From Lachnospiraceae bacterium (GTDB lineage Bacteria; Bacillota; Clostridia; Lachnospirales; Lachnospiraceae): a stretch of 33,451 bases of DNA. Positions 2,305-17,020 of the stretch are shown here, in pieces. Under the pieces are notes generated by a model. It made no database searches and was not told the origin of the DNA. It saw only the letters and a list, made by a program, of their open reading frames with translations. The stretch is taken from assembly GCA_030524705.1 (NCBI GenBank), contig JAUNGD010000039.1:1-33451 (forward strand), read 5' to 3'. How positions within the stretch are numbered: position 1 is the stretch's first letter; each line of letters starts with the position of its first letter. The position numbers and the translations under genes were made by a program.

Positions 2305-3153
2305 ATGACGGCGGAAGATTTAAAAAATCTGAAAGTAATGAGAAAAAAAATGTTTTTAGCAGCGTATGCAGGAGGCTCGGCACATCTTGCCTCCGCATTT
2401 TCGTCTGCTGAAATATTTTATGCCTTATATCAGAAAAAGATTCTTCGGACAGAACCGGGAAATCCTCAGGCTGAGAATCGGGACCGTCTGGTTCTCAGCA
2501 AAGGCCATGCGAGTCTGGCCTGGTATGCTTCTCTTGCCATGGCAGGGTTTATTTCGGAGGAGGAGCTATACACGTTTATTCAGCCGGGAACGAGGCTGAG
2601 CGGGGAGCCGTGTCCCAACGGCGTTCCCGGGATAGAAGCGGCGACGGGTTCCCTGGGGCACGGCCTTTCCCTGGGACTTGGGATGGCGCTGGCGGCAAAG
2701 CTGGATCAGAAAGATTTTCATACGTATGTGATCTTAGGCGACGGGGAGTGTCAGGAGGGCACGATATGGGAGGCCGTTATGGCGGCTCACAAATATCAGC
2801 TTGGAAATCTGACGGCTATTCTGGACTGCAACAAAATTCAGAAGATGGGATTTATTGAGGAGACCATGCGTATTTCCTCCTGGAGATCAAAGTGGGAATC
2901 CTTCGGCTGGCAGGTAGATGAGATCAAAGACGGTCACGATCTGGATGAGATCTGTGAGGTTTTGCGCAGAAAAAATGATGAAAATATTCCAAGGCTTGTA
3001 GTGGCAAATACGACAAAGGGAAAAGGGGTCTCCATTATGGAGAACAACCCGAACTGGCATTACAAAATGCCGAATCGCAGAGAAATGAAAACGTTTGTCA
3101 GCGAACTGGAAATTTCGGAGAAGGAGCTGGAAAAATGCAGAGAGCATATATGA
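2305..3153 (+). CDS. Transketolase-like protein, N-terminal (TPP-binding) subunit
   Basis: First half of a split transketolase, 282 residues. Transketolases move a two-carbon ketol unit between sugar phosphates using thiamine diphosphate. The TPP motif is intact: GDGECQEG starts at Gly145 and the closing Asn is residue 176. SKGHAS (about residue 66-71) and GSLGHGLSLGLGMA match the family. ATG 2305 follows GGAGGA (2288-2293) with a rather long 11-base gap; the frame continues naturally into a family-like N-terminus. It heads the decoration operon and overlaps the C-terminal subunit gene by 19 bp, implying translational coupling and a heteromeric enzyme. A pair inside a glycan/acyl-carrier cluster more likely serves a dedicated precursor than bulk pentose metabolism, but that is inference. 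Confidence 0.88.
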   Translation: MTAEDLKNLKVMRKKMFLAAYAGGSAHLASAFSSAEIFYALYQKKILRTEPGNPQAENRDRLVLSKGHASLAWYASLAMAGFISEEELYTFIQPGTRLSGEPCPNGVPGIEAATGSLGHGLSLGLGMALAAKLDQKDFHTYVILGDGECQEGTIWEAVMAAHKYQLGNLTAILDCNKIQKMGFIEETMRISSWRSKWESFGWQVDEIKDGHDLDEICEVLRRKNDENIPRLVVANTTKGKGVSIMENNPNWHYKMPNRREMKTFVSELEISEKELEKCREHI

Positions 3154-4052
3154 GTGCATTGTGTGAGCTGGCGGAAAAAGACAGAAATGTTCTTTCTCTG
3201 CTGGCGGATAGCGGAACAGGATATGATGAGCTTTTTCGGCGTTATTTTCCGAAGCAGATGCTGGATTTTGGAATTGCTGAGGAAAACATGGTGGCAGCGG
3301 CGGCAGGCCTTGCTCTGTGCGGGAAGATTCCTTTTGTTTATACGGCGGGGGCTTTCCTTGCGTACCGAAGCTTTGAATTTATCAGGGACGACGTGTGTTT
3401 TCAGAATCTGAATGTCAAAATTGTGGGGATGGGCGCGGGCCTTTCCTGGAGCACGCTGGGTTCAACACATCATACGACGGAGGACCTGGGGGCCTTGAGA
3501 AGCCTTCCGAATTTGACGATTTTGTCGCCCTCCTGTCCGAAAGAGGTAGAAAAAGCCGTGAAGGCGGCCTACGACATAAAGGGGCCTGTTTATATAAAGA
3601 TCGGCATGAACAACGAGCCGGATATTTACAGGGAAGAGGAGCCGTTTGTGGTCGGCAGAAACAGAGAATTACGCTCTGGTAAGGATCTTTGTGTTTATAC
3701 GACGGGAAGTATTGCTTCGGAGGTGCTGACGGCGGCAGAGCTTCTGGAGAAAAAAGGGCTGGACATTGGCGTGGTAAATGTTCCGACGATCAAACCGCTG
3801 GATACGGCGGAGATTTTGGATCGCGCTGTCAAATACAATACAATTTTAACTGTGGAAGAGCACAGCATTACGGGAGGCCTGGGAAGCGCGGTGGCCGAGG
3901 TGCTGGCAGAGAGCGATGTGAAGGTCAGATTCCGAAGAATTGGGCTTCGTAACTGCTTTGCTGCGGGCTATGGCACTCACGCCCAGGTAAAAGCGGCCAA
4001 TGGGCTGGATGCGGCGGGAATTGCAGAACAGATTTTGGCTGCACAGAAATAA
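3135..4052 (+). CDS. Transketolase-like protein, C-terminal subunit
   Basis: Second half of the split transketolase, 305 residues. It carries the pyrimidine-binding domain, including the family glutamate that activates TPP (GIAEENM, Glu49), and the THHTTEDLGALR segment typical of transketolase/DXPS C-terminal halves. It then has the transketolase C-terminal domain (VCVYTTGSIASEVLTAA onward). ATG 3135 has AAGGAG at 3121-3126 with an 8-base gap, inside the end of the preceding gene. The two proteins together equal a full-length transketolase, and each half has its own start and stop, so this is the natural two-gene form common in Clostridia and archaea, not a frameshift. The fkbH-like gene starts 27 bp downstream. 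Confidence 0.88.
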   Translation: MQRAYMSALCELAEKDRNVLSLLADSGTGYDELFRRYFPKQMLDFGIAEENMVAAAAGLALCGKIPFVYTAGAFLAYRSFEFIRDDVCFQNLNVKIVGMGAGLSWSTLGSTHHTTEDLGALRSLPNLTILSPSCPKEVEKAVKAAYDIKGPVYIKIGMNNEPDIYREEEPFVVGRNRELRSGKDLCVYTTGSIASEVLTAAELLEKKGLDIGVVNVPTIKPLDTAEILDRAVKYNTILTVEEHSITGGLGSAVAEVLAESDVKVRFRRIGLRNCFAAGYGTHAQVKAANGLDAAGIAEQILAAQK

Positions 4053-4079
4053 AAAAGAGAAATCAGAGGCAATCATAAA

Positions 4080-5807
4080 ATGAGTGAGATTACGTTTACA
4101 AGGCTGAAAAGGAATTGCAAGAAGGATATGTCGGATAAAAAGAAGCTTCGTCTGGCTATTCTGGGGGATTGTGCCACCCAGCATCTGGCAACAGCCATCC
4201 GGGGATACGGCGTGGAAGAGGAGCTGTGGTTTGAGGTGTTTGACGCCGATTATAATCAGATCGACGCACAGCTTCTCGATCCCCAGTCTGAATTTTTTCA
4301 GTTTGATCCCCAGTTTGCTTTAATTTATATGTGCTCTGAGAAATTATACCATTCTTTTTATGAGACGGAGGATAAGGCAGGCTTTGCCGATGCGGTATAT
4401 CAGAAGATCCGCTCCTACTGGGAGCTGATAAACAGCCATGGAGCTGTAAACATTATTCAGTTTACCTTCGTTGAGGCGGATGACCGGATATTCGGGAACT
4501 ATGCGGCAAAGACACAGGCATCCTTTTTGTACCAGGTAAAGAAGCTGAATTATCTGCTGATGAACGGCGCTCAGGAAGTAAAGAATGCTTTTTTGATGGA
4601 CCTGAATTATATTACGGCGCAGTACGGAAGAGAAAAGGTATACGACGACAAGCTGTATTATATTGCCAAAATGCCGCTGTCCACGGGGATTCTCCCGGAG
4701 GTGGCAAAGCAGGTTACAGATATTGTCAAGGCGGTTTCAGGGCGTATCATAAAATGTGTGGTGACAGATCTCGACAATACGCTTTGGGGAGGCGTCATCG
4801 GAGACGACGGCCTGGAAGGAATACAGATCGGCGAGCTTGGTCTGGGGCATGCATTTGAAGAATTTCAGATGTGGCTGAAGGGGCTGAAAAGCCGGGGGAT
4901 CATTCTGGCTGTGTGCAGCAAAAACAACGAGGATACGGCAAAAGAGCCGTTTTTGAAACACCCGGAAATGGTGCTACGCATGGATGATTTTTCTATGTTT
5001 GTGGCGAATTGGGAGGATAAGGCTTCCAACATACGTTATATACAGGAAACCCTCAATATCGGAATGGACAGCATTGTATTTCTGGATGACAATGCATTCG
5101 AACGGAATCAGGTAAAGAGCATGATCCCGGATATTACCGTGCCGGAGCTTCCGGAGGATCCGGCCATGTATCTGAGCTATCTGAAGGGACTGAACCTGTT
5201 TGAGACGGCATCCTGGTCGGAGGCGGATAAGGACCGGACGAAGCAGTATCAGTCTGAAATAAAGCGCACGGAGCAGAGACGGCAGTACCAAAATTATGAT
5301 GAGTACCTGCAGAGTCTGGGGATGGTCGCCGTGGCAAAGCCCTTCGATCCGTTTCAGTATCCGAGAATTGCCCAGCTGACCCAGCGCTCGAACCAGTTCA
5401 ATCTCAGGACTGTCCGGTATACAGAGGCGGAAATCGAAAAGCTGGCAGAAGACGATCATTTCCTGACGCTGTATTTTATGCTGAAGGATCAATTCGGCGA
5501 TCACGGCCTGATCAGTGTTGCAATTTTGGAAAAGCAGGATGAAGAGACGTTGTTTATGCATAACTGGCTGATGAGCTGCCGTGTCCTGAAGCGGGGGATG
5601 GAAGAGTTCATCATCAATAAGGTAATGGAAACTGCCAGGGAGAACGGATATAAAAGGGTCATTGGAGAATACATCCAGACACCGAAAAATGCAATGGTAA
5701 AGGATATTTACGGGAAGCTTGGCTTCCGGGAAGCCGGCGGCGGTCTGTTTGTGGCAGATGTAGATACGTTTGTTCAAAACAAAACATTTATAAAAACAGA
5801 GGAATGA
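4080..5807 (+). CDS. FkbH-like HAD-family carrier-protein acylating enzyme
   Basis: A 575-residue FkbH-like protein. Studied FkbH members dephosphorylate 1,3-bisphosphoglycerate and load the glyceryl group on an acyl carrier protein as a thioester. The N-terminal ~210 residues look SGNH-like with GDC (Gly29-Asp30-Cys31) where hydrolases have GDS. The central HAD domain has the motif VTDLDNTLWGG (Asp230, Asp232), VCSKNN (Cys279, Ser280, Lys281) and FLDDNAFER (Asp336, Asp337). The C-terminal ~150 residues are GNAT-like, ending near YGKLGF. ATG 4080 has a weak AGAGG upstream; ATG 4128 would also give a sensible N-terminus but its Shine-Dalgarno is too close. The carrier protein gene follows directly, supporting the loading role. 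The true acyl group is unproven. Confidence 0.87.
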   Translation: MSEITFTRLKRNCKKDMSDKKKLRLAILGDCATQHLATAIRGYGVEEELWFEVFDADYNQIDAQLLDPQSEFFQFDPQFALIYMCSEKLYHSFYETEDKAGFADAVYQKIRSYWELINSHGAVNIIQFTFVEADDRIFGNYAAKTQASFLYQVKKLNYLLMNGAQEVKNAFLMDLNYITAQYGREKVYDDKLYYIAKMPLSTGILPEVAKQVTDIVKAVSGRIIKCVVTDLDNTLWGGVIGDDGLEGIQIGELGLGHAFEEFQMWLKGLKSRGIILAVCSKNNEDTAKEPFLKHPEMVLRMDDFSMFVANWEDKASNIRYIQETLNIGMDSIVFLDDNAFERNQVKSMIPDITVPELPEDPAMYLSYLKGLNLFETASWSEADKDRTKQYQSEIKRTEQRRQYQNYDEYLQSLGMVAVAKPFDPFQYPRIAQLTQRSNQFNLRTVRYTEAEIEKLAEDDHFLTLYFMLKDQFGDHGLISVAILEKQDEETLFMHNWLMSCRVLKRGMEEFIINKVMETARENGYKRVIGEYIQTPKNAMVKDIYGKLGFREAGGGLFVADVDTFVQNKTFIKTEE

Positions 5808-5821
5808 AAGGAAGAACGGCA

Positions 5822-6067
5822 ATGAGCAGAGAAGAGATTTTAAGAAAAGTAAATGAAATTTTTTGGGATGTATTTGATGATGAGTCGATCGTGGTGACGG
5901 AGGAGACCACGGCTGCCGATATTGAGGACTGGGATTCCCTGACCCATATCACTCTGATTTCTGAAGTAGAGGGCGAGTTCGGATTTACCTTCGCCATGAA
6001 GGACGTACTCGGTATGAAAAATGTCGGAGAGATGCTTGATATTATTATGAAGTCTGCAAAGCTTTGA
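5822..6067 (+). CDS. Acyl carrier protein
   Basis: Small acidic carrier protein of 81 residues. The phosphopantetheine attachment serine is Ser39 in the motif EDWDSLTHI, at the start of helix II as usual. An ATG at 5804 is in frame and overlaps the fkbH-like stop, but AGGAAG ahead of ATG 5822 at 7 bases makes 5822 the better start. Lying straight after the FkbH-like gene and before a MaoC and an MBOAT, it is probably a dedicated carrier for the pathway-specific acyl group and not the housekeeping fatty acid ACP, whose gene normally lies with fab genes absent here. Its position parallels DltC in a dlt operon. Confidence 0.9.
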   Translation: MSREEILRKVNEIFWDVFDDESIVVTEETTAADIEDWDSLTHITLISEVEGEFGFTFAMKDVLGMKNVGEMLDIIMKSAKL

Positions 6068-6103
6068 TGGAGCGGCTTTTGTGCTAAATGGAGGAACAGG
6101 ACA

Positions 6104-6532
6104 TTGAATCATTACAGCTTTGAAGAACTGACGGTGGGACAGGAAGAAAGCTTTGAGGCAGACATCACGGAGGAGATGATGGAGCAGTTTTACAGGATCA
6201 CGGGGGATGAGAACCCGCTGCACCGCGATTCGGCATTTGCGGGCCAGATGGGCTACGCAGACCGTGTAGTATACGGAATGCTGACTTCATCCTTTTTCTC
6301 CACGCTTGCCGGAGTATATCTTCCGGGGGAGAGAAGCCTGATCCATCGGGTGGAAACGGAATTCCCCAGACCGGTATTTATCGGGGACCATCTGACTGTC
6401 ACCGGAAAAGTACAGGAGAGGAACGAGACGTTTCAGACGGTCACGCTGAAGGTCGTGATTACAAATCAGAATAAAGAGAAGGTCTGCAGAGGAAAAATGC
6501 GGATCGGGTTTTTAAAGAGAGACGGGGAGTAA
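6104..6532 (+). CDS. MaoC-like hot-dog (R)-hydratase/dehydratase
   Basis: A 142-residue single hot-dog protein of the MaoC / (R)-specific enoyl hydratase family, which adds or removes water at a 2-enoyl / 3-hydroxyacyl thioester. The hydratase-2 motif is intact, with catalytic Asp35 and His40 in TGDENPLHRDSAFA. The later family motif usually read as VVHGML appears here as VVYGML, a His to Tyr change at a position that is often but not always His. The only start consistent with the fold is TTG 6104, preceded by GGAGGA (6090-6095) at 8 bases. It is 2 bp from the MBOAT gene. Placed after the carrier protein, it probably works on the carrier-bound acyl group; the exact reaction is unknown. Confidence 0.88.
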   Translation: MNHYSFEELTVGQEESFEADITEEMMEQFYRITGDENPLHRDSAFAGQMGYADRVVYGMLTSSFFSTLAGVYLPGERSLIHRVETEFPRPVFIGDHLTVTGKVQERNETFQTVTLKVVITNQNKEKVCRGKMRIGFLKRDGE

Positions 6533-6534
6533 AG

Positions 6535-8085
6535 ATGTTTTTGGTAACTTTTGGCTTTCTGGTTTTTATGGCAGTTACGATGGCGGTGTATTATCTGGTG
6601 CCGGGTAAGATACAGTGGGCGGTATTGTTAGCCGCCAGCGCTGTATTTTATTTTTGTGCGGCCACGCCGTATACGGTGATTTATCTGCTGGTGACGATCG
6701 TGACGGTGTGGGCGGGAAGCAATTATATTGATAAGGTTCGGGAGGACAGCCCCCGGAAAGCAAAGAGGGCGCTGATCGCCACCTTGCTGGTAAATATTGG
6801 TATTCTGGCCGCTCTGAAATACATGAACTTTTTTATTTCGAATTTCCGGCTCGTGTGTCAGCTTTTTGGGAAGGGACAGGAAATCCAGACGGTTCACTGG
6901 GCGGCTTCCCTGGGCGTCAGCTTCTATACCCTTCAGGCCGTCAGCTATTTGGTGGACGTGTACTGGGGGACCTCGAAGCCGCAGAAAAACCTCTTCAAGG
7001 TTGCACTGTTTACCGCCTATTTTCCGCAGATGTCTTCCGGGCCGATCTGCCGTTATCAGGAGATGGAGCAGCTTTACGCGCCGCATAAATTTGATTATCA
7101 GAAGATCAGCTTCGGAATGCAGCGTATGCTGTTTGGCTTTATCAAGAAGCTGGTGGTAGCGGAAAATCTGGCTGTCTATGTAAATTATATATTTGATGAA
7201 AGCGCCAATTACAATGGAATGTTCCTTTGGATTGGCTTGTTTGCGTATGTAATACAGCTCTATGCAGATTTTTCCGGCTGTATGGATATTGTGCTGGGGG
7301 CTTCGGAATGCTTTGGCATTTATATGCCGGAGAATTTCAACCGTCCGTTTCATTCAAGAAGCATACAGGAATTCTGGAAGAGATGGCATATCACTCTGGG
7401 AAGCTTTGCCCAGGATTATATCATGTATCCGATCCTGCGCTCCCGGGCCTGGACGAAAATGCGGAAAAATCTCAAGGTGAAATACGGAAAGGCAGCGGCC
7501 AAAAACGTGCCTACCTATATTGCCATGATGATTCTATGGATCTACATTGGAATCTGGCATGGCGGCGCATGGAATTATGTGGCGGAGGGCATCTGGTTCG
7601 GAGTTGTGGTAATGCTGGGACAGCTCCTGGACAAGCAGCTGAAAAAACTGATGAGGCTGCTTCGGATTTCAGGAGAATCCAGGTGGTGGCACGGCTTTCA
7701 GAGCTTCCGTACTGCGGTGATCTACGGAGTCGGCGTATACTTCTTCCGGGCGTCTACCGTGCGCCGGGCGCTCCACTATGTAAAGGCGTCTGTTTCACCG
7801 AAATGCCTGGCACCGTCTAATTTCCTGATGCAGTGGCAGGTGTTCAGCAGCTCCTTCCCGGTGAAGGAATTTTATAAGGCAATGCTCTGTGTGGGGATCG
7901 GTTTCTTTTTTATGCTTGTGCTGACGTGGTTCCAGGCCAGGGAAAAATCCTTCTACCAGTGGCTTGCCGGCAGAAATATCGTGATACGCTGGGGGATTCT
8001 TTACGTTATGATGTTCACTGTGATTCTTCTGGGGGTATATGGACCGGAATTTAATGCGTCACAGTTTATTTACGGAGGATTTTAG
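6535..8085 (+). CDS. MBOAT family membrane acyltransferase (DltB/AlgI-like)
   Basis: A 516-residue polytopic membrane-bound O-acyltransferase. Members such as DltB and AlgI pass an acyl group from a cytoplasmic donor across the membrane toward an extracellular hydroxyl. The family motifs are clear: NFNRPFHSRSIQEFWKRWH (His285) and the invariant catalytic histidine His342 in IGIWHGGAWN. About ten hydrophobic segments are distributed along the protein. ATG 6535 follows GGGGAG at 6 bases. It directly precedes a DltD/SGNH-like gene with a 2-bp gap, the common MBOAT plus SGNH partner arrangement. With an upstream carrier protein, it most resembles DltB in logic, though the overall motif style is equally AlgI-like. 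The donor is inferred to be the local acyl-ACP. Confidence 0.92.
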   Translation: MFLVTFGFLVFMAVTMAVYYLVPGKIQWAVLLAASAVFYFCAATPYTVIYLLVTIVTVWAGSNYIDKVREDSPRKAKRALIATLLVNIGILAALKYMNFFISNFRLVCQLFGKGQEIQTVHWAASLGVSFYTLQAVSYLVDVYWGTSKPQKNLFKVALFTAYFPQMSSGPICRYQEMEQLYAPHKFDYQKISFGMQRMLFGFIKKLVVAENLAVYVNYIFDESANYNGMFLWIGLFAYVIQLYADFSGCMDIVLGASECFGIYMPENFNRPFHSRSIQEFWKRWHITLGSFAQDYIMYPILRSRAWTKMRKNLKVKYGKAAAKNVPTYIAMMILWIYIGIWHGGAWNYVAEGIWFGVVVMLGQLLDKQLKKLMRLLRISGESRWWHGFQSFRTAVIYGVGVYFFRASTVRRALHYVKASVSPKCLAPSNFLMQWQVFSSSFPVKEFYKAMLCVGIGFFFMLVLTWFQAREKSFYQWLAGRNIVIRWGILYVMMFTVILLGVYGPEFNASQFIYGGF

Positions 8086-8087
8086 TC

Positions 8088-9200
8088 ATGAAAAGGATGC
8101 CGGTATGGACGAAAAATTTATTGAGATGTGTTTTCTTTTTCGGCATTTTTCTGGTGATGCTCGTTACGGTATCATACATTCTGAGACCCTACAGCGGAGG
8201 CGCCAGCCGTAAGAACCTGTGCGGCTTTTATGCGGAAGAAGAGGATTCTCTGGATGTGGTATTTATCGGCTCCAGCGCGGTTTTTACCTACTGGGAGCCC
8301 ATGGAATTCTGGAAAAAATACGGCGTTACCTCCTATGATTTTGCGGTGGGGACGATGCCGCCGCAGACTGTGAAATACTGCCTGAAGGAGATTCAAAAAA
8401 CGCAGGATCCGGAACTGTATGTGATCGACCTGCGCACCTTCAACGCAGCGGAGGACGGGTACTATCTGGAGAAGGAAGTCATGAATATGGATCATGAGGT
8501 TCCGCTTCGGAATGTGACGGACAATGTAAAATATTCTCTGAACCGTTTTCAGATGATTGCAGACTGTGTCCCGGATACCTACGATAAGCTGTCGTATTAT
8601 CTAGATATTGTGAAGTATCATACAGAATGGCTTCGCCTGAAGGATAAGCAGTCGCTTTTGTTCGGACGGAACGAGACCCACGACAGTCTGAAAGGCTTTA
8701 AGCTGGTGAATGCAGTGAAGCCGGTGGAATTTAAGGATTACAGTGAAGTGGATTCCAAAAGAGAGCTTTCGGAAAGGCTGGAGGGAATTTTATATGACCT
8801 GCTGGATTACTGCAGGGAGGAAGACCTGCAGGTGCTGTTTCTGGTAAATAATTACTGCCAGTCGAAGAAGCATAAGGAAATGTACAATTATATGGAGGGC
8901 ATTATCACAGACTATGGATTTGGCTTCCTGAATACGAACGATTTTTATCAGGAGATAGGTGTTGATTTTTCCACTGATTATTATGACAAGTCCCATGTGA
9001 ATATTTATGGCGCAGATAAGTACACGGAATTTGTCGGAGAATATCTGATGGATCACTACAGCTTTGTGTCTAAGGCCGGTGAGCCGGAATATGCATCTTG
9101 GGACAAGGATTATGAAGTGTGGCTTCAGGAGACAAAGGAGCTGAAGGAAAGCATTCAGGCGAAGATAGACGCTGCGGAAAAGGAAACGGAGAATCCGTAA
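8088..9200 (+). CDS. DltD/SGNH-like membrane-anchored protein, MBOAT partner
   Basis: A 370-residue protein with one N-terminal membrane anchor (about residues 12-33) and a large extracytoplasmic domain. It has an SGNH-type block I, FIGSSAVF (Gly61-Ser62-Ser63), and a C-terminal DKSHVN block with Asp300 and His303, so the usual Ser-Asp-His set is present. Such proteins partner with MBOAT enzymes (DltD with DltB, AlgJ/AlgX with AlgI) and finish acyl transfer on the outer face. ATG 8088 follows GGAGGA (8074-8079) at 8 bases, 2 bp after the MBOAT stop. Sequence outside the motifs does not look like canonical DltD, so only the class is assigned. A short hairpin lies in the 63-bp gap before the next gene. 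Confidence 0.85.
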   Translation: MKRMPVWTKNLLRCVFFFGIFLVMLVTVSYILRPYSGGASRKNLCGFYAEEEDSLDVVFIGSSAVFTYWEPMEFWKKYGVTSYDFAVGTMPPQTVKYCLKEIQKTQDPELYVIDLRTFNAAEDGYYLEKEVMNMDHEVPLRNVTDNVKYSLNRFQMIADCVPDTYDKLSYYLDIVKYHTEWLRLKDKQSLLFGRNETHDSLKGFKLVNAVKPVEFKDYSEVDSKRELSERLEGILYDLLDYCREEDLQVLFLVNNYCQSKKHKEMYNYMEGIITDYGFGFLNTNDFYQEIGVDFSTDYYDKSHVNIYGADKYTEFVGEYLMDHYSFVSKAGEPEYASWDKDYEVWLQETKELKESIQAKIDAAEKETENP

Positions 9201-9215
9201 CGGAAGGCCGGGCCG

Positions 9216-9233
9216 CTTTATTTCGGAATAAAG
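9216..9233 (+). other. Short intergenic RNA hairpin in the operon
   Basis: A 7-bp perfect inverted repeat, CTTTATT then AATAAAG around a TCGG loop, lies in the 63-bp gap between the SGNH-like gene and the SDR gene. No T-run follows, so it is not a standard terminator. It could be a processing or stability element that lets the two halves of the operon differ in mRNA level. Significance is uncertain because the arms are AT-rich. Confidence 0.3.
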
Positions 9234-9263
9234 GGTTCGGGAAAGAAGAAAGAGGGAATGAAA

Positions 9264-10007
9264 ATGGAAGCAAGGTGGGCGTTGATCACAGGAAGCAGCC
9301 GGGGGATCGGCGCGGCAATCCTGGAGAAGTTTGCCGCAAACGGGTACCACATATTTGCACATGCAAGAAAATATTCGCAGGAATTTGAACAGCATCTTTT
9401 GGAGCTCGAAAAAGAATATGCGGTGGAGATAATTCCGGTTTATTTTGATATGACGGACAGCGAGGCGATGCAGAGGGAGATGCGGAAGCTGATTCAGGAA
9501 AGGAGGAAGCTTCATGTGCTGGTGAACAATGCCGGCGTGATCCATTCCGGGCTCTTCCAGATGACGGAAATGCAGACGATCCGGGATGTATTTGAGGTGA
9601 ATCTGTTTTCTGCTATGGAGCTGACACAGCTGGCGCTGAAAATGATGGTGCGCAAAAAAGGCGGCAGCATTGTGAATTTATCCTCCATAGGAGGACTGGA
9701 TCTAGGTATGGGGATGTGTGCCTACGGCGTTTCAAAGGCTGCCCTGGCAGCCTTTACAAAAACGTTGTCCTGTGAGCTTGGCTATTATGGAATCCGGGTC
9801 AACGCCGTGGCGCCGGGCTTTGTGGATACCCGGATGGGACAGTCCGAGGAGGTAAGAGCAGAACGGGAACGTCTGGAAAGCAAAAAAGGCCAGCTCTGCC
9901 GTCTGGCACAGCCGGAGGAGATTGCCAATACGGTATATTTCCTGACCTCCGGGCAGGCGTCTTACATCAACGGACAGGTGATCCGGATTGACGGCGGAAA
10001 TCAGTGA
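9264..10007 (+). CDS. Short-chain dehydrogenase/reductase (FabG-like)
   Basis: A 247-residue classical SDR. It has the N-terminal nucleotide-binding TGSSRGIG (residues 9-16), NNAG, and the catalytic Ser141, Tyr154 and Lys158 in the SSIGG...AYGVSK arrangement, followed by APGFVDT and a C-terminal YINGQVIRIDGG, so the fold is complete and probably active. ATG 9258 touches the Shine-Dalgarno sequence (AGAGGGA, 9251-9257); ATG 9264 has a proper 6-base gap and is preferred. FabG-like architecture suggests reduction of a 3-ketoacyl-carrier thioester or oxidation of the matching alcohol, fitting with the carrier protein and MaoC upstream. A sugar substrate (a keto-sugar intermediate) is also possible because the next genes make glycans. 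Confidence 0.88.
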   Translation: MEARWALITGSSRGIGAAILEKFAANGYHIFAHARKYSQEFEQHLLELEKEYAVEIIPVYFDMTDSEAMQREMRKLIQERRKLHVLVNNAGVIHSGLFQMTEMQTIRDVFEVNLFSAMELTQLALKMMVRKKGGSIVNLSSIGGLDLGMGMCAYGVSKAALAAFTKTLSCELGYYGIRVNAVAPGFVDTRMGQSEEVRAERERLESKKGQLCRLAQPEEIANTVYFLTSGQASYINGQVIRIDGGNQ

Positions 10008-10060
10008 CAGGGCAGACGGATGTACCGGAGTGCTTTTGAGGACAGAAGGAGTATGGACAA

Positions 10061-10984
10061 ATGAAAGTTTCGATTGTAATTCCCGTTTATTATAATGAGG
10101 ATAATCTCATTCCTCTGTATAAGGATATAAAAGAAAAATTTGTGGAAAAAATCAATTATGAATATGAGATTGTCATGGTAAACGACGGCTCCGGGGACAG
10201 AAGCTATGAGGTAATGAAATCCCTTGCGCAGCAGGATCCCAATATAAAGATTGTCAGCCTGTCCCGGAATTTCGGATCCCACGCGGCAATCCTGTGCGGA
10301 CTGGAAAAGTGTACCGGAGACTGTGCCGTTGTCAAGGCGGCAGACCTCCAGGAGCCTACGGAGCTGATCCTTCAGATGGTGGAGAGCTGGCAGCGCGGCA
10401 ATAACGTAGTATTGGCGGTGAGGAAGGACCGGAAAGAAGGCTTTGGCCAGAAGCTCTTTGCCAATACGTATTACTGGATGGTGAGGAAAGCAGCCCTGGC
10501 CAATATGCCGAAGGGCGGTTTTGACGTGTATCTGCTGGACCGCAAGGTGATCCAGGTGCTGTTGGCGCTGGATGAGCGGAACAGTGCCTTGACGGGACAG
10601 ATCCTGTGGAGCGGATTCCGCACAGAGGAAATTCCGTATGTACGCCTGGCCCGGGAGATTGGCACCAGTAAATGGACGCTCCGTAAGAAGGTAAAGCTGG
10701 TGGCGGATACGCTGTTTAGCTTTTCTACGCTGCCGATCACGCTGGTGACGACGATCGGGGCCGTATCCTTTTTTGGGGCAATTATCTGGGCCGTTTTTGT
10801 GCTGGTCTGCAAGCTGCTGGGAATGATCCCGGTCAGCGGCTGGACAACGCTGTTTATTTTTAACCTGTTCAGCTTCGGAGTGATCATGATTACTTTAGGA
10901 ATCCTGGGCGGTTACCTGTGGAGAACCTTTGACGCCTCCCGCAACAGGCCGACGTATATCGTGGAGGAAGAGAATGAGAAGTAG
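10061..10984 (+). CDS. GtrB/DPM1-like family 2 glycosyltransferase with C-terminal membrane segments
   Basis: A 307-residue GT-A enzyme with two C-terminal transmembrane segments (about residues 225-250 and 262-285), the layout of GtrB/ArnC/polyprenyl-phosphate sugar synthases, which move a sugar from a nucleotide donor to undecaprenyl phosphate at the inner face. The N-terminal SIVIPVYYNEDNL and VNDGSGD segments are typical. The metal-site motif usually read as DADLQ appears as AADLQEP (Ala93, Asp95, Gln97), so the first Asp is replaced while the second remains. Start ATG 10061 has a strong AGAAGGAG site. It overlaps the GT-C-like gene by 11 bp. With the GtrA homologue downstream, it suggests a lipid-linked side-chain sugar route. 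Confidence 0.88.
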   Translation: MKVSIVIPVYYNEDNLIPLYKDIKEKFVEKINYEYEIVMVNDGSGDRSYEVMKSLAQQDPNIKIVSLSRNFGSHAAILCGLEKCTGDCAVVKAADLQEPTELILQMVESWQRGNNVVLAVRKDRKEGFGQKLFANTYYWMVRKAALANMPKGGFDVYLLDRKVIQVLLALDERNSALTGQILWSGFRTEEIPYVRLAREIGTSKWTLRKKVKLVADTLFSFSTLPITLVTTIGAVSFFGAIIWAVFVLVCKLLGMIPVSGWTTLFIFNLFSFGVIMITLGILGGYLWRTFDASRNRPTYIVEEENEK

Positions 10985-12395
10985 TAATAAAAGAAATACA
11001 GTGCTGACGGCAGCCGGACTGACGCTGTTTGTTTTTGTACTGATTATGTGGGTGGATAACACCAGCTTTCCCTATGATTCCGGGCAATACTGGAAGCTTG
11101 GAAAAAGCTTTTTTGATGAGGATGGACATTTTTCACTGCTGTCTTATCCGCAGCACATCAGGGGCTATTTCTTCCCTCTGTTGATCGGACTGTGCCGGCA
11201 GATCGGGGCCGGGCTGTTCGGAAACCGGTACGTGGTCTATCGGTTTGTAATCAGTCTGGTTACGGTGCTGATGATCACTGTGATCCTGCCGGGGATACTG
11301 GAAGTGAAAACAGGGACCCGCCGGTGGATGGCCGGCAGTGCGGCAGGCGTGGCGGTATTTTTGCTCTTCTGGAAGGATATGCTGATCTATCCGCTGTCGG
11401 ATGTACCGGCGCTGGCAATGTACCTGTCTGTGATATTGATTTTGAAAAAGATTTTTCGAACTCCGAAAAAAGGGAAAAAGAATTTTCTGCTCTGCGGGGC
11501 GCTGTCTGTTCTGGCAGGAGCTCTGGCTTATGGGGCATACAATACCAGAAGCGTATACATGATCCCTCTTTTCATTACGATGCTGATCTGGGTGATTTTT
11601 GTGGTTGCCGGAAAGCAGACGAAAAAGCTGCTCTGCATTCTGGGAATTGTGCTGGGAACCGCGGTCTTTGCGTATCCGCAGACGGTCATCAATCAGAATA
11701 CCTTCGGGGTTTCCTCGCCGATGCTTCAGAACAATCTTTTTGTGTATCAGCTGAAGTGGGGCGTCCGCATGCCTCGTTTTGAGACCTATATTGGAGATAA
11801 GGCCCAGTATCCGAAGGCGAAGGCGGAGTTTGTCAGTGAGCTGGGCGAAAATCTACTGAAGGAAAACGAGATCGAGAGCATCGGAGATTTTGTGAAATGC
11901 ATGCTTACGCATCCCTTCGAGGCGTGCGCGATCTATTTTGAACATTGCGTCAGCGGCATCACGATGTTTTACAACGATGTGTACGTCAATGATATCCGGG
12001 TCGGGAAGAAGCTGTTTGGGCTTAACTGTCTGCTGTATCTTATGGCGCTGGCCGGATTGATGGCATTTGGGGCGAGAAAGAAAAAGCAGAATCTGCTGCA
12101 GAAGCTCCTGACTCTGTTTGTGATTGCCGTGCCGGCAATTCTTGCGATGCCCGGAGCGCTGGAGGTTCGTTTTTTCCTTCCGGTTTATCTGCTGGTATAC
12201 TGTTATGTGTTTATGATTATGGATTATCGGGAGATATGGAGGTTTATCAGGGAGCATTGGCTGGTAACAGGCATGACCCTGGTGCTGGCGGCCCTGATCT
12301 GGGCTTCAGCGGCAGGTCATTTGCTGACTGAGCTGCAGTATGCAGACCTTGATTTCAGCGGAAATGTGTATTTGAGTGAAGTGACAGAGGATTGA
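10974..12395 (+). CDS. Polytopic membrane protein, probable GT-C glycosyltransferase
   Basis: A 473-residue protein with roughly ten hydrophobic segments and an acidic motif in the first outer loop, PYDSGQYW (Asp35), as in GT39/ArnT-like lipid-phosphate-sugar dependent transferases. I cannot assign a named family from sequence alone. The frame opens at 10929, but ATG 10974 is preceded by GGAGGA with a 5-base gap and starts a normal basic N-terminus before the first membrane helix, so it is chosen. It overlaps the GtrB-like gene by 11 bp, implying coupled expression. The inferred role is to transfer the sugar from the undecaprenyl-phosphate donor made by that enzyme to a polymer or protein outside the membrane. 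Confidence 0.75.
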   Translation: MRSSNKRNTVLTAAGLTLFVFVLIMWVDNTSFPYDSGQYWKLGKSFFDEDGHFSLLSYPQHIRGYFFPLLIGLCRQIGAGLFGNRYVVYRFVISLVTVLMITVILPGILEVKTGTRRWMAGSAAGVAVFLLFWKDMLIYPLSDVPALAMYLSVILILKKIFRTPKKGKKNFLLCGALSVLAGALAYGAYNTRSVYMIPLFITMLIWVIFVVAGKQTKKLLCILGIVLGTAVFAYPQTVINQNTFGVSSPMLQNNLFVYQLKWGVRMPRFETYIGDKAQYPKAKAEFVSELGENLLKENEIESIGDFVKCMLTHPFEACAIYFEHCVSGITMFYNDVYVNDIRVGKKLFGLNCLLYLMALAGLMAFGARKKKQNLLQKLLTLFVIAVPAILAMPGALEVRFFLPVYLLVYCYVFMIMDYREIWRFIREHWLVTGMTLVLAALIWASAAGHLLTELQYADLDFSGNVYLSEVTED

Positions 12396-12412
12396 TAGTG
12401 GGAGGTGTTTGG

Positions 12413-12841
12413 ATGATAGATCGTGATTCCGTCCGTATGTTGGAATTTCCGCAGCGGGGCGATGAAAGAGGCCATCTTGTGATCGTAGAGGGAAATCAGG
12501 ATATCCCCTTTGAGATAAAAAGGATTTTTTATATTTATGGTTCTGATGATACTGTGGTGCGGGGACAGCATGCAAACCTGCGGAGTGAATTTGTGCTGAT
12601 CAACGTGGCAGGAAGAAGCAAGGTCAGGGTAGATGACGGTCTCGGCAATGAGGCGGTGTTCCATCTGAACCGGCCGCATACCGGAATCTATCTTCCCAAA
12701 ATGGTATGGAAGGATATGTATGATTTCAGCGAGGATTCTGTGCTGCTTGTTCTTTCAAGCGAGCATTACGATCCGGATGAGTATATTCGGAGCTATGAAG
12801 AATTTGAGCGTCTGATGAGAGAAAAAGCAAATAAAAGCTGA
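12413..12841 (+). CDS. FdtA/QdtA-type dTDP-4-keto-6-deoxyhexose 3,4-ketoisomerase (WxcM-like cupin)
   Basis: A 142-residue cupin. FdtA/QdtA enzymes convert dTDP-4-keto-6-deoxyglucose to the 3-keto isomer for making 3-amino-3,6-dideoxy sugars (Fuc3N or Qui3N). Family features are DERGHLVIVEG near residue 18, IPFEIKRIFYIYG (31-43) and RGQHAN with Arg50 and His53. The family motif is commonly RGxHAH; here the second His is Asn55. ATG 12413 follows GGAGG at 7 bases; an in-frame TTG at 12392 is less likely. The aminotransferase gene that would use its product starts 52 bp downstream. FdtA versus QdtA stereochemistry cannot be decided by eye. Confidence 0.85.
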   Translation: MIDRDSVRMLEFPQRGDERGHLVIVEGNQDIPFEIKRIFYIYGSDDTVVRGQHANLRSEFVLINVAGRSKVRVDDGLGNEAVFHLNRPHTGIYLPKMVWKDMYDFSEDSVLLVLSSEHYDPDEYIRSYEEFERLMREKANKS

Positions 12842-12893
12842 CGGATGAACAGGAGTCTGGGTCTGTCAGAGACAGGCAGGAGGGAAGAGAAAA

Positions 12894-13994
12894 ATGAAGA
12901 TAATGCCGAACCGCATGGACCGCGGTTTTGAAATGTTTCAGCAGGAATTTGAAGAGAAGGCTCTGGAGGTACTGCGCTCCGGCTGGTATGTGCTGGGAAA
13001 TGAGGTCCGTTCCTTTGAGGAAGAGTTTGCAGGCTATCTCGGGGCAAAGCACTGTGTCGGTCTGGCCAGCGGGCTGGATGCATTGTGGATCGCATTCCGT
13101 ATTCTGAATATCGGCGAGGGTGATGAAGTTATTGTTCAGGGGAATACCTACATAGCCAGTGTTATGGGGATTACGATCAACGGAGCTACGCCTGTATTTG
13201 TTGAGCCGGATGAATTTTATAATATTGACGCCTCTAAAATAGAGGAGAAGATCACGGAGCGGACCAAAGCTATTCTGGTCGTGCATCTGTATGGACAGGC
13301 GTCCAACATGGCGCCTATTGCAGCGCTGGCCCGCAAATACGGGCTTCGTCTTGTGGAGGACTGTGCCCAGTCTCATGGCGCATGCTTTGACGGACAGATG
13401 ACAGGGGTATTCGGGGACATCGGATGCTTTTCCTTTTATCCCTCCAAAAACCTGGGAGCCTTCGGCGATGGGGGGGCCATCGTGACGAACGATGATAAAA
13501 TCGCTGAGGATGTCAGGGTATTCCGGAACTACGGCAGTGAAAAGCGCTACTACAATAAGGTCGTTGGCGCGAATTCCAGGCTGGACGAGCTGCAGGCGGC
13601 GCTGCTTCGGGTAAGGCTTTCGCATCTGAAGGAGCTGACGCAGGAAAGAGAACGGCTCTGTGGAAATTACCTGCAGGGGATCGAGAATCCGTTGATCCGG
13701 CTTCCGGGAATACGGGAGGGCGCAACCTCTGTATGGCATCAGTTTGTGGTCCGCTGTACAGAAAGAGAGGCGCTGATCAAATACCTGAATGAAAAAGAGA
13801 TAGGAACGATTATTCATTATCCGATTCCTCCGCATTTGTCAGAAGCGTATCAGTACCTGGGGATGCCCAGAGGAAGCCTTCCGGTCACAGAGCGCCTGGC
13901 GGACGAGGTGCTGTCGATTCCTTTGTATAACGGTATGACAGATGAGGAACAGGATTATGTGATACAGGCTCTGAATGCTTTTCCCGGTGCCTGA
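12894..13994 (+). CDS. DegT/DnrJ/EryC1/StrS sugar aminotransferase (FdtB/QdtB-like)
   Basis: A 366-residue PLP enzyme that aminates keto-sugars. The PLP lysine is Lys185 in FYPSKNLGAFGDGG, and the cofactor-binding Asp156 and Gln159 are in VEDCAQSHG. NTYIASV and the GLASGLDAL phosphate-binding turn are present. Length and motifs match FdtB/QdtB/DesV-type 3-aminotransferases, and adjacency to the 3,4-ketoisomerase makes a 3-amino-3,6-dideoxyhexose product likely. Start ATG 12894 follows AGGAGGG; a small CTGTC/GACAG hairpin (12863-12875) precedes it. The RmlA and RmlB steps that supply the 4-keto substrate are not in the window. Confidence 0.92.
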   Translation: MKIMPNRMDRGFEMFQQEFEEKALEVLRSGWYVLGNEVRSFEEEFAGYLGAKHCVGLASGLDALWIAFRILNIGEGDEVIVQGNTYIASVMGITINGATPVFVEPDEFYNIDASKIEEKITERTKAILVVHLYGQASNMAPIAALARKYGLRLVEDCAQSHGACFDGQMTGVFGDIGCFSFYPSKNLGAFGDGGAIVTNDDKIAEDVRVFRNYGSEKRYYNKVVGANSRLDELQAALLRVRLSHLKELTQERERLCGNYLQGIENPLIRLPGIREGATSVWHQFVVRCTEREALIKYLNEKEIGTIIHYPIPPHLSEAYQYLGMPRGSLPVTERLADEVLSIPLYNGMTDEEQDYVIQALNAFPGA

Positions 13995-14045
13995 CAGAGG
14001 CATGGGGGCAAAAGATAAATTTGTCAGAAAAGGAAAGGACTTAGT

Positions 14046-14525
14046 ATGGGGACTAAATTGTGGGACTGGCTGGAACGGACGCTGAGATTTCTCCTGATAC
14101 GGGTGCTGCATCTTTCTTTTTTGGAGAGAAGCTGGGATGGGCTGATGCAGTTTGTAAAATTCGGACTGGTGGGAGTTTCCAATACTCTGATCATGTATGT
14201 CGTGTATCTGGCAGGGCTGGGACTGGGGCTGCACTACGTTGCGGCGAATGTAATCGGCTTTCTGGTCAGCGTCATAAATGCTTTTTACTGGAACAACCGT
14301 TATGTTTTTGTCCTGGAGGACGGTCAGAGCAGGAATCTGTGGCGCAGCTTCTGCAAAACCTTCCTGTCGTACGCGGGGACGGGACTTGTCCTCAATAATA
14401 TTCTGCTGTATGTGCAGGTGGATCTTCTGCATATTTCGGAAATTATTGCACCGCTTGTCAATCTTGTGGTTACGATTCCGCTGAATTTCCTGCTGAATAA
14501 GCTGTGGGCTTTTCGGAAAGAATGA
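14046..14525 (+). CDS. GtrA-like membrane protein (putative lipid-linked sugar flippase)
   Basis: A 159-residue, four-helix membrane protein of the GtrA/DPMS family. Recognisable family signatures are FVKFGLVGVSNT (about residues 36-47), NAFYWNNRYVF (78-88) and IPLNFLLNKLWAF (144-156). Membrane segments lie near residues 40-60, 64-83, 104-124 and 131-152. GtrA proteins are thought to flip undecaprenyl-phosphate sugars made by GtrB to the outer face. It is separated from the GtrB-like gene by the GT-C, ketoisomerase and aminotransferase genes but lies in the same run, so a three-component GtrABC-type route is plausible. ATG 14046 follows AAGGAC; no other start improves on it. Confidence 0.88.
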   Translation: MGTKLWDWLERTLRFLLIRVLHLSFLERSWDGLMQFVKFGLVGVSNTLIMYVVYLAGLGLGLHYVAANVIGFLVSVINAFYWNNRYVFVLEDGQSRNLWRSFCKTFLSYAGTGLVLNNILLYVQVDLLHISEIIAPLVNLVVTIPLNFLLNKLWAFRKE

Positions 14526-14579
14526 CAGGCAGGCGGTAGTACGGGAAGAAGGAAAAATCACAAGGATGGAGAGAAAAGA

Positions 14580-15155
14580 ATGAAGCATTCATACAGTGCC
14601 GGCGTGCAGAATGTAAGGCTGCGTCCGCTGGAAGAAAGAGATATTGAATCCCTGCGCATTTGGAGAAACGATCCGGAAAAGACGGCGTTTCTCAGGAGGA
14701 TCGGTGAGATCACTCCTGATATGCAGAAAAAATGGTTTGAAGCGTATCTGGAAAATCCGGATGAAATAACCTTTGCCATTGAAGAGACTCAGGAGCTACA
14801 CCGCCTTGTCGGCAGTGTGGCATTGTATAATTTTAAAGATGGGGCGGCGGAAGCAGGCAAGATTCAGATTGGCGACGACGAGGCGCACGGCCGGGGAATC
14901 GCAGCGAAGAGTATGGCGCTGGCTGCCTGTATCGGTTTCCATTATTTCGGTTTGGAAAAGATTGCCGCGTCTGTTCATCAGGAAAATGCGGCGGCATATC
15001 GCAGCTATCTTAAAATCGGCTTTCGTGCGGTCGGCAGCCATGAGGCTCCTATGGGAGGGAGAGAGGATGAACTGGAGCTTACTGTGCGGCAGCTCCGGGG
15101 AGCTGTGGACTACTTACAGGAAATATATTTTTATTCTGGTACAGAGCCGGAGTAG
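14580..15155 (+). CDS. GNAT family N-acyltransferase (RimJ/RimL-like), probable amino-sugar acylase
   Basis: A 191-residue GNAT protein. The N-terminus VRLRPLEERD and RIWRNDPE is typical of RimJ/RimL-type members, and the acetyl-CoA pyrophosphate-binding loop is HGRGIAA (His103-Ala109). The C-terminal YLKIGFRAVG segment corresponds to the usual beta6/7 region. Because it closes a run with a ketoisomerase and a 3-aminotransferase, the natural reading is N-acetylation of the new amino sugar. That role is filled by a hexapeptide enzyme (FdtC/QdtC) in the described pathways, so this would be a family substitution. The acyl donor might be acetyl-CoA or, speculatively, the cluster's own carrier-bound group. 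Start ATG 14580 is preceded by GGAGAG. Confidence 0.82.
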   Translation: MKHSYSAGVQNVRLRPLEERDIESLRIWRNDPEKTAFLRRIGEITPDMQKKWFEAYLENPDEITFAIEETQELHRLVGSVALYNFKDGAAEAGKIQIGDDEAHGRGIAAKSMALAACIGFHYFGLEKIAASVHQENAAAYRSYLKIGFRAVGSHEAPMGGREDELELTVRQLRGAVDYLQEIYFYSGTEPE

Positions 15156-15346: not shown

Positions 15347-17020
15347 ATGAATAGGGTAAGCACTTGGATAGAAGAAAACAGGGAAAAGTTGTGGTTCTCT
15401 TTTTTACTGAATGCGTTATTTTTCACAGGCTTGCTGCTGGCTTTCCGGCCGGTATATGAGACGAATGACGATGTGGGAATAGCCAGTATGGTGAATGGGG
15501 CAAAGGGTGTGTATGATGCACATTTGATCTACAGCCACTATTTTCTGGGATTGCTGCTGAAGGCGCTTTATCTCATAAAGCAGAATTTCCCCTGGTATGG
15601 AGTTCTGCAGTATGTGGTTCTGTATTTGTCTTTTACTGCGGTCACATATGTGCTGATCCGCAAGATGGCCAGTCCGTCGGCGGTATGGATTTCAGGCGTA
15701 CTTGTATTCTGGTTTTCTTATGAGGGATATATTAAGGTTCAGTTTACAAAGACCGCCGGGATTGCATCTGCTGCCGGTCTTCTCCTGCTTTTTTATGCGG
15801 TTACCCGTGAAAGGATATCCAAAAAGGCTCTTGCCTGCGGAATGCTTCTTTCCGTGACGGGGTTCCTTTACCGGGATGCTCAGTTTTTTGCGGAAGCGGC
15901 CCTGATGACCGGTATCGGTGTCTTTCTTCTTCTTGATCTGACAGAGCTGGAGAGAGGAAAGCGCCTGCAAAGGTTCGGCAGATATATTGCCGCCTTCGGG
16001 TCATTGCTTGCACTGGTGCTTGTCCTGCATTTTGCGGACCAGTATTTTTATACATCTCCGGACTGGGAAGCGTACAAACAATCCAGGGAGGTAAAGACAG
16101 AATTATATGACAGAGGTTTTCCGTCATATAAGGAAAATGAGAGCGCATATAATGAGCTTGGCATCGATGAAAACGCATACCGGCTGCTGCGGGGCTGGGT
16201 CAATATGGATACTGAAAAATTCAGTGTTGAGACATTGGAAAAGATCGCTTCCATGAAGACCCCAAGGAGGTTTAGCAGACAGTTTGCAAAGGATTTCTTT
16301 GAAACATTCCCAAAAGGTTTTCTGAAGATACCGTGCGTTTACTGCTTTCTTTTGATTTGCGTTTACTGGCTCTGCTGGGGAGTGCGTGACCGCAGGGGCA
16401 TATTGGCTGTTATCTATGAAGCGCTGCTTGCGGGAGGAATATATCTGTACATGTTTTATCAGAACAGGTATCTTCTGAACCGGGTTGATGTCGGTATATG
16501 GCTGGCGGTGTCCATGGTAGTATTATGGACGTTTACAGAAGGAAAGGCGTATTTTCCGAACCGGGCAGGCTTAGCACTTCTGCTGACGGTTATTGTTGCA
16601 GTACAGCCCGTCTGGAAAAGCCGTTACCGCATAAATGCCGAAGACGCGGAAGCCACTATGCGGCAGTGCCGTCTGGAGCTGGAAACGGTCAGCGCGGACA
16701 AAGAGCATTTATATCTTATCACCACGGGGACAGTTTCAACGAGCAGCAGCTACAATGTACTGGATCCCATACCCTTTGGTATATCCCAGAACACGCTTCC
16801 GCTGGGAGGGTGGGCCGTGACGGCGCCATTGTATCTGGATATCGCCAGGGATTTCGGTCTTGAAAATCCGCTGAAGGATATGATAGGAAATGACAGAGTG
16901 TATGTTTTGAGCCGTGATATCAGTTCACTGCTGGAATATGTCAGAACCTATTACGATGCGGACGCGGAAGCAGAAGTGGTTCGGGATATGGGCGACATAA
17001 AGGCGTATAGGATCGGATAA
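15347..17020 (+). CDS. Large polytopic membrane protein of unknown function, GT-C-like
   Basis: A 557-residue protein with about ten hydrophobic segments in its N-terminal three quarters and a soluble C-terminal part (about residue 425 on). I do not recognise a named family. A paired acidic motif, ETNDDVG (Asp41, Asp42), sits in the first outer loop just after the first membrane helix, where GT-C glycosyltransferases place their catalytic acid; a glycosyltransferase or polymer ligase role is therefore suggested but unproven. It has its own promoter candidate upstream, so it may be expressed separately from the decoration operon. The YkuD-family gene follows after 66 bp. ATG 15347 follows GGAGAG closely. 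Confidence 0.65.
   Translation: MNRVSTWIEENREKLWFSFLLNALFFTGLLLAFRPVYETNDDVGIASMVNGAKGVYDAHLIYSHYFLGLLLKALYLIKQNFPWYGVLQYVVLYLSFTAVTYVLIRKMASPSAVWISGVLVFWFSYEGYIKVQFTKTAGIASAAGLLLLFYAVTRERISKKALACGMLLSVTGFLYRDAQFFAEAALMTGIGVFLLLDLTELERGKRLQRFGRYIAAFGSLLALVLVLHFADQYFYTSPDWEAYKQSREVKTELYDRGFPSYKENESAYNELGIDENAYRLLRGWVNMDTEKFSVETLEKIASMKTPRRFSRQFAKDFFETFPKGFLKIPCVYCFLLICVYWLCWGVRDRRGILAVIYEALLAGGIYLYMFYQNRYLLNRVDVGIWLAVSMVVLWTFTEGKAYFPNRAGLALLLTVIVAVQPVWKSRYRINAEDAEATMRQCRLELETVSADKEHLYLITTGTVSTSSSYNVLDPIPFGISQNTLPLGGWAVTAPLYLDIARDFGLENPLKDMIGNDRVYVLSRDISSLLEYVRTYYDADAEAEVVRDMGDIKAYRIG

Follow-up and report, generated by a model that had tools for sequence, protein, structure and literature searches.

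The window examined here, the whole 33,451-nucleotide stretch of contig JAUNGD010000039.1 (our contig C141) from a Lachnospiraceae bacterium, carries a cassette of eight genes that encode a split transketolase-like pair, an FkbH-like protein, an acyl carrier protein (ACP), a MaoC-like hydratase, an MBOAT acyltransferase, an SGNH-fold transferase and a reductase of the SDR family. The source genome is a 3.87-Mb draft that is 88% complete. We consider it probable that the cassette is a carrier-dependent MBOAT-SGNH acyl exporter in which FkbH replaces the DltA-type ligase and which moves a hydroxyacyl group derived from glyceryl. This role is supported by the order of the block in congeners, the company that FkbH, ACP and MBOAT genes keep in relatives, the shuttle motif of the MBOAT, its missing YIPLGG-type motif and the SGNH fold of its partner. 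Further support comes from the acyl-thioester families found near FkbH, namely an epimerase-like VOC protein, 2-hydroxyacyl dehydratase and MaoC with SDR.

The FkbH gene belongs to a conserved eight-gene cassette

A preliminary description of this DNA had singled out five consecutive genes, from FkbH to SGNH. Their open reading frames lie on the + strand where it had placed them, and the residues it named are present: ACP Ser39 (counted from ATG 5822), MBOAT His342 and SGNH Ser62/Ser63, Asp300 and His303. Its limits of 4080..9200 were too narrow, as tktN, tktC and the SDR gene are conserved together with the five. The five genes are part of an eight-gene cassette, tktN-tktC-FkbH-ACP-MaoC-MBOAT-SGNH-SDR, at 2305-10007:

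2305..3153, + strand: tktN, transketolase-like N-terminal half (Transketolase_N 136 bits; thiamine diphosphate motif starting GDG at residue 145)
3135..4052, + strand: tktC, transketolase-like C-terminal half (Transket_pyr 102 bits, Transketolase_C 91 bits)
4080..5807, + strand: FkbH-like HAD-IIIC loader (TIGR01686 296 bits, cut-off 147; FkbH_N PF21211 219 bits)
5804-6067 or from ATG 5822, + strand: ACP (PP-binding 22.1 bits, cut-off 20.8)
6104..6532, + strand: MaoC-like hydratase/dehydratase with a TTG start (MaoC_dehydratas 61 bits)
6535..8085, + strand: MBOAT acyltransferase (MBOAT 47 bits; DltB model 148 bits, under the cut-off of 375)
8088..9200, + strand: SGNH-fold transferase by predicted fold, with an N-terminal helix, Ser63 and His303
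9258..10007, + strand: FabG-like SDR reductase with Tyr156 and Lys160 (adh_short_C2 188 bits)

The FkbH and ACP genes overlap by 4 bp when counted from the first ATG, and the later gaps through SGNH are 36, 2 and 2 bp. Two congeners (L254 and L255) keep all eight genes in identical order, with 74-92% and 65-77% identity among the BLAST-matched genes; tktN is 86% and 71% identical, and the SDR, in matching position in both, 74% and 65%. The ACP of the second congener was missed by an overlap-filtered listing and confirmed by direct reading. Cassette-type tktC was seen in 3 of 16 genomes from the genus, counting the window's own.

The MBOAT looks like a hybrid of DltB and PatA

The cassette MBOAT ends in FIYGGF, with Tyr513 as the putative shuttle, and its catalytic His342 and Tyr513 are invariant in 21/21 aligned rows. 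In PatA and DltX, the Tyr of an FxYxxF motif serves as acyl shuttle according to passages of PMC12148441. As this motif is fused to its C-terminus, the cassette protein looks like a hybrid of DltB, with a carrier as donor, and PatA, with a fused shuttle. FkbH-linked MBOATs longer than 440 residues (n = 65) mostly share the feature: 58 end in the strict FxYxxF form and 62 in a relaxed one, the failures being L072, L073 (frame split in two) and L087. DltB of the window's own genome has no C-terminal shuttle motif, which is expected since DltB works with DltX.

The SGNH protein has no Pfam match, and its fold was called from the Foldseek list and a second look by VIA-align. The structure model has an SGNH fold. 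Foldseek gave no match at E 0.001 or better (best 8.3e-3), while VIA-align superimposed the model on DltD over 237 residues and also placed PatB among the matches; DltD is not singled out, because many SGNH chains tie. Of the SGNH residues named in the preliminary description, Ser63 is kept in at least 90% of 21 aligned sequences and His303 in all of them, but Asp300 is Asn in the two nearest relatives, L067 and L071. By sequence and model the two proteins form an MBOAT-SGNH pair, the one with a catalytic His and an FxYxxF shuttle, the other with an SGNH fold and a Ser-His active site, and together with the carrier they bear out the dlt-like export architecture proposed earlier.

The Dlt system (DltA-DltD and DltX), which D-alanylates teichoic acids, likewise has a carrier, an MBOAT and an SGNH-fold transferase in one gene run, with MaoC inserted between ACP and MBOAT here. 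The core of the cassette MBOAT aligns with DltB (E 1e-24), although its 147.7 bits stay under the curated DltB cut-off. The loader is FkbH instead of an AMP-forming ligase, and no DltA-type match occurs among the scanned genes of 2305-15155. Moreover, the MBOAT itself carries the shuttle, and no gap between cassette genes exceeds 57 bp, which is too little for a DltX gene (DltX was not searched for elsewhere). Finally, the cassette coexists with a separate dltABCD in the genome.

The window MBOAT also lacks a YIPLGG-type motif, whose use as a marker is an observation of this analysis and no published rule. On our alignment, counted by hand, the motif falls on DltB residues 301-306, at the start of the DltC-binding helix; DltC contacts DltB at Met302, Val305, Ile306 and Met309, as given in part of PMC11035591. 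From the 30 most window-like MBOATs in the family sample described below the motif is absent throughout, and 22 of them are flanked, within up to 1.5 kb, by a carrier gene. Among 30 control MBOATs, picked by likeness to the genome's carrier-less, motif-bearing MBOAT, the motif is present in 30, partly by selection, and a flanking carrier gene in 0, which is not by selection. The window MBOAT, motif-less and with a carrier gene in its cassette, thus falls outside this carrier-less type. Five of 16 hand-picked loci (L102, L113, L117, L121 and L138) have two MBOATs, one with the motif and one, in the FkbH-ACP block, without it.

These data bear on the alternative that the MBOAT and SGNH proteins O-acetylate a polymer from acetyl-CoA like PatA/PatB, with the FkbH-ACP genes serving another purpose. 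PatA/PatB peptidoglycan O-acetylation does share the fused C-terminal FxYxxF shuttle and the separate SGNH transferase, as described in sections of PMC12148441, and PatB is among the structural matches. However, PatA takes acetyl-CoA, whereas the cassette has a carrier gene and an MBOAT without the motif of the carrier-less control set. ACP and MBOAT accompany FkbH in 42 of 61 relatives, and for 23 of the 30 window-like MBOATs the link is to either FkbH or a carrier-accompanied DltA-like ligase. We regard acetylation from acetyl-CoA as highly improbable.

FkbH often has carrier and MBOAT genes nearby in several phyla

With an FkbH domain above its cut-off beside an ACP gene, the cassette has the makings of a glyceryl-ACP synthase, which would load the carrier. 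Asp230, Asp232, Lys281, Asp336, Asp337 and Cys500 of FkbH are invariant in 12/12 rows, and Ser39 of the ACP in 18/18. The arrangement of an FkbH-like protein beside a standalone ACP is that of glyceryl loading in polyketide pathways (tetronates, methoxymalonyl-ACP). Unlike in those, no polyketide synthase match is found among the scanned genes of 2305-15155, and the group would be exported via MBOAT and SGNH.

Our family sample comprised 299 genomes, searched for FkbH at E 1e-60 and for similar MBOATs. A match at this threshold or better occurs in 58 of them, the window's own included; close relatives number 12 besides the window's FkbH and are 52-64% identical. Neighborhood shares were taken from the best 80 of 583 relatives, 17 family-sample loci and the window, and duplicate contigs (L037, L043 and L046) were removed before counting. 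Eight of the 17 hold distant FkbHs and were tallied separately; the close loci number 90. The 80 scanned loci are titled Clostridia, Bacteroidota, Verrucomicrobiota, Desulfovibrio and others, although many are metagenome bins whose individual taxon labels may be wrong.

In the 90 close loci, same-strand ACP genes make up 66 of the 342 genes in the first two positions around FkbH, 7 of the 459 in positions three to five and 3 of the 578 beyond; with the ACP so concentrated, the pairing exceeds chance. Companions within 5 kb on the same strand were counted in the 61 close loci with 5 kb on both sides, which do not include the window: ACP in 53, MBOAT in 43, both in 42, MaoC in 24, SDR in 24 (the profile pools unlike SDRs, those of L046 and L048 being 25% and 23% identical to the window's) and VOC in 16. 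These counts were redone without the overlap filter that partly hides ACP genes in some neighborhood tallies (e.g. L047), and L115 and L137, scored as ACP-less, both have ACP and MBOAT on the opposite strand. The gene-set search suggested in the preliminary description hence finds the FkbH-ACP-MBOAT combination to be widespread.

Sets of this kind also occur on plasmids. A Rhodobacteraceae plasmid carries ACP-FkbH-MBOAT with a VOC gene. On pSymB of Sinorhizobium meliloti (ml47, L191 3699-8734) there are an MBOAT, an unassigned protein, ACP and FkbH, with annotated capsule genes some kilobases off; the unassigned protein is annotated as a TonB-dependent receptor, yet has no Pfam match. In this model symbiont, pSymB of strain 1021 gives an FkbH match as well. 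A Campylobacter flagellar glycan locus also holds an FkbH-domain gene, as reported in part of PMC7099621.

Similar MBOATs are linked to different putative loaders

Among the 30 most window-like MBOATs, the window's included, the linked gene is FkbH in 12 and a DltA-like ligase, together with a DltC-like carrier, in 11; 2 have only a carrier and 5 have none in sight. These labels were assigned by hand: L145 and L159 count as FkbH-linked at distances of 4.2 and 3.5 kb, and L170 as none despite an FkbH 18 kb off. The near-equal 12 and 11 agree with the earlier proposal that FkbH stands in place of DltA. On a quickly built tree of 89 MBOATs, 8 changes suffice to explain the FkbH label, compared with a shuffled mean of 20.6, so that it is clustered yet has switched repeatedly. 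L067 and L071, whose MBOATs cluster with the window's (99% SH-aLRT), are also the two loci sharing the window's tkt-FkbH-ACP-MaoC-MBOAT-SGNH order.

Two observations concern ligase-linked loci. In L175 and L182 the DltA-like ligase is separated from the carrier-MBOAT-SGNH genes by a gene resembling a pyridoxal phosphate-dependent decarboxylase (named by eye), an arrangement that suggests an acyl group other than D-alanine. In L181 and L186 a formyltransferase-like protein, also named by eye, is encoded between ligase and carrier-MBOAT genes.

The preliminary description had asked whether the system replaces or accompanies dltABCD. In this genome it accompanies it, as a complete dltABCD is present elsewhere, with DltA on contig C144. 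Five further MBOATs occur in the genome (L057 on C144, L058 on C33, L059 on C113, L060 on C35 and L061 on C57): DltB, two adjoining a DltA-like ligase, one that has a DltC-like carrier, and one for which no carrier is in sight. Apart from dlt, those with a ligase or carrier are probably further carrier-dependent surface acylation systems.

Putative tailoring genes vary between loci

Near FkbH we found five alternatives: no tailoring gene in sight, VOC, MaoC with SDR, MaoC with tktN/tktC (mostly plus a reductase) and a 2-hydroxyacyl dehydratase set. The 80 loci fall into 16 classes, led by ACP+MBOAT+MaoC+SDR (19) and ACP+MBOAT without a visible tailoring gene (16), followed by ACP+MBOAT+VOC (9) and ACP+MBOAT+MaoC+tkt (4, the window included), with the other 32 in 12 smaller classes. 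The VOC protein is a Glyoxalase_4 whose best NCBIfam match, under its cut-off, is methylmalonyl epimerase. The 2-hydroxyacyl dehydratase comes with its activator, GcvH, lipoamide dehydrogenase and lipoate ligase, a set that could deoxygenate an acyl-ACP. Dehydratase, GcvH and lipoate ligase are seen in L079 (11968-17148), L080, L084 and L086 (partial), the full set being Pfam-checked in L079 only.

In the window's MaoC, Asp35 and His40 are invariant (4/4 rows). Of seven FkbH-linked tktC genes, six (those of the window, both congeners, L067, L069 and L071) cluster in a single clade with 100/100 support, separate from the split transketolase found in 14 of the 16 genomes of the genus; the seventh, from L138, lies elsewhere in the tree. 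An SDR or AKR gene lies near all six loci of this clade, and none is labelled in L138.

All these alternatives could act on a 2,3-dihydroxyacyl thioester. VOC would invert carbon 2. MaoC would remove the 3-hydroxyl to give pyruvoyl, which SDR would then reduce to lactyl, and tktN/tktC may add a two-carbon unit ahead of the reduction. Lactyl formation of the bryostatin type from glyceryl-ACP is reportedly known; no paper on this route was found among the titles listed for it in the open-access PMC library. The likeliest final group is not plain glyceryl but a small hydroxyacyl, which may be lactyl-like or an extended polyhydroxyacyl.

A different source of the group has to be weighed here, in that the ACP may bear a short 3-hydroxyacyl such as 3-hydroxybutyryl, drawn from fatty-acid metabolism via MaoC and SDR, with FkbH in another role. 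MaoC and FabG-like enzymes act on (R)-3-hydroxyacyl thioesters, a substrate range that suits this explanation. In 26 of 88 loci both MaoC and an SDR occur at most six genes away from FkbH, and one FkbH locus, L133, has a KAS III gene. Against it, none of the eight cassette proteins matches a ketosynthase in Pfam, FkbH has its nearest companion in the ACP, and the VOC and 2-hydroxyacyl dehydratase alternatives would better suit a 2-hydroxyacyl group. Taken together, we find a fatty-acid origin quite unlikely.

Neighboring genes and the remainder of the window

The cassette opens a run of fourteen + strand genes (2305-15155) with gaps of at most 57 bp. The limits of the run were set by strand and gaps, since promoter-like sites (19, shuffled mean 19.7) and terminator-like sites (17 versus 15.1) are at chance level in the window. 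The genes after the cassette are:

10061..15155, + strand: neighbors outside the conserved cassette, encoding (families from Pfam) GT2, a 488-residue protein, FdtA, a DegT aminotransferase, GtrA and GNAT, with gaps of at most 54 bp

The 488-residue protein downstream of GT2 has no Pfam match. With GT2 and GtrA it resembles a three-component glycosylation system, in which it would perhaps be the GT-C member; such systems are reviewed in PMC8035078, seen here in part.

Since they continue the same gene run, these genes invite another explanation, namely that the FkbH-ACP group goes to an FdtA/DegT amino sugar via the GNAT (14580-15155) in the cytoplasm and that MBOAT and SGNH carry out ordinary O-acetylation. 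L114, L119 and L136 do combine FkbH-ACP with DegT or FdtA, and no MBOAT lies within six genes. However, the genes after the cassette differ between the congeners (a sugar ABC transporter plus a GH77 enzyme versus a cell-wall hydrolase), and none of the window's GT2-to-GNAT genes has a match in the stretches examined downstream of the cassette (about 5 kb in L254, about 8 kb in L255). The amino-sugar and glycosyltransferase genes are therefore neighbors of the cassette and not parts of it, and N-acylation of an amino sugar by the GNAT becomes less likely as a main role. Within six genes of FkbH, DegT is found in 4/88 loci and FdtA in 2/88, compared with MBOAT in 60/88. The best match of the GNAT is PseH, at 38 bits versus a cut-off of 93, and the motif-less window MBOAT also fits ordinary O-acetylation poorly. 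In our estimate, transfer to an amino sugar is very unlikely.

Beyond the run, after a gap of 191 bp, lies a gene for a 557-residue protein (15347-17020) without a Pfam or NCBIfam match, followed by one for a protein that combines fibronectin type III domains with an L,D-transpeptidase (YkuD) domain (17087-18373). The window has no tRNAs and no RNA families at gathering scores. Anti-phage defence was considered and set aside; six proteins were without a PADLOC match.

Observations that weigh against an FkbH-fed exporter

Several observations count against the cassette as a carrier-dependent exporter fed by FkbH. The ACP match to Pfam PP-binding is weak. A whole-sequence scan of the 89 MBOATs found the YIPLGG-type motif in 4/66 with an FkbH label, 0/14 with a ligase, 0/3 with a carrier only and 1/6 with none; in an earlier segment-based count 11/89 had no recognizable segment, and ten of these were re-examined. 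The label follows proximity to FkbH, and in L107, L113 and L121 the closest MBOAT is a motif-bearing one. L113 and L121 have a second, motif-less MBOAT beside the FkbH-ACP block and the L107 locus is cut after SDR, leaving L045, with FkbH, ACP and a motif-bearing MBOAT, as an exception. Conversely, the motif is missing from all 8 window-like MBOATs without a visible carrier and from 5 of the 6 carrier-less MBOATs in the set of 89. Because carrier-less window-like MBOATs lack it too, its absence is a mark of this MBOAT group and no proof of carrier use. Shared descent confounds motif and carrier, since both MBOAT sets were chosen by similarity.

In the 61 loci, no same-strand MBOAT occurs within 5 kb in 18 and no ACP in 8. 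Some FkbH-ACP loci without a nearby MBOAT have other genes instead: DegT or FdtA in the three loci named above, KAS III in L133 and, by annotation, a WcbI-type acyltransferase in L192. Given the 18 loci without an MBOAT, FkbH and ACP may together supply further acyltransferases as well, perhaps acting on amino sugars or with KAS III. Finally, a search at E 1e-60 gave no FkbH match in another congener, G152.

Discussion

For the carrier-dependent exporter with FkbH as loader, homology and gene content suggest a route of four steps. FkbH would dephosphorylate the glyceryl unit of 1,3-bisphosphoglycerate and load it on the ACP phosphopantetheine, as its family does. MaoC, the tktN/tktC enzyme and SDR would then tailor the thioester in the cytoplasm, with a set of enzymes that varies in relatives. 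The ACP would dock on the MBOAT, where His342, by homology with DltB and PatA, would transfer the group to Tyr513 of the FIYGGF shuttle. The acyl-Tyr would hand it to Ser63 of the SGNH protein, which would esterify an extracytoplasmic acceptor. This acceptor is not encoded by the cassette, and the glyceryl group and the wall polymer of the preliminary description are both inferred. A precedent for such an ester is gellan gum, a bacterial polysaccharide with L-glycerate as O-glyceryl (part of PMC9104527), although polymer and organism differ from those of the cassette.

More speculatively, carrier-dependent MBOAT-SGNH export might be a platform with exchangeable loaders, FkbH or a DltA-like ligase, and exchangeable tailoring enzymes. 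Here MaoC would dehydrate glyceryl-ACP to pyruvoyl-ACP, the split transketolase-like enzyme would add a two-carbon ketol unit and SDR (AKR in relatives) would reduce the product, giving a branched or extended polyhydroxyacyl ester as a new surface decoration. We think this full scheme rather unlikely as it stands. The split transketolase-like pair, the SDR and the fused C-terminal shuttle motif are features absent from the preliminary description.

No description of this gene composition was found in the open-access PMC literature, a scope outside which most subscription papers and preprints lie, so this is no proof of novelty. Passages of a 2025 paper (PMC12148441) state that non-Dlt MBOAT-SGNH acylation pathways have no similar carrier protein. 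Gene content speaks against this as a general rule: in Clostridia and Bacteroidota, MBOAT genes are found next to carriers that lie beside FkbH, and MBOATs of this kind in the window's family stand next to a carrier that has a DltA-like ligase. If the exporter works as proposed, glycolysis would supply a surface decoration directly through 1,3-bisphosphoglycerate, and the tailoring genes would allow a guess at the acyl group.

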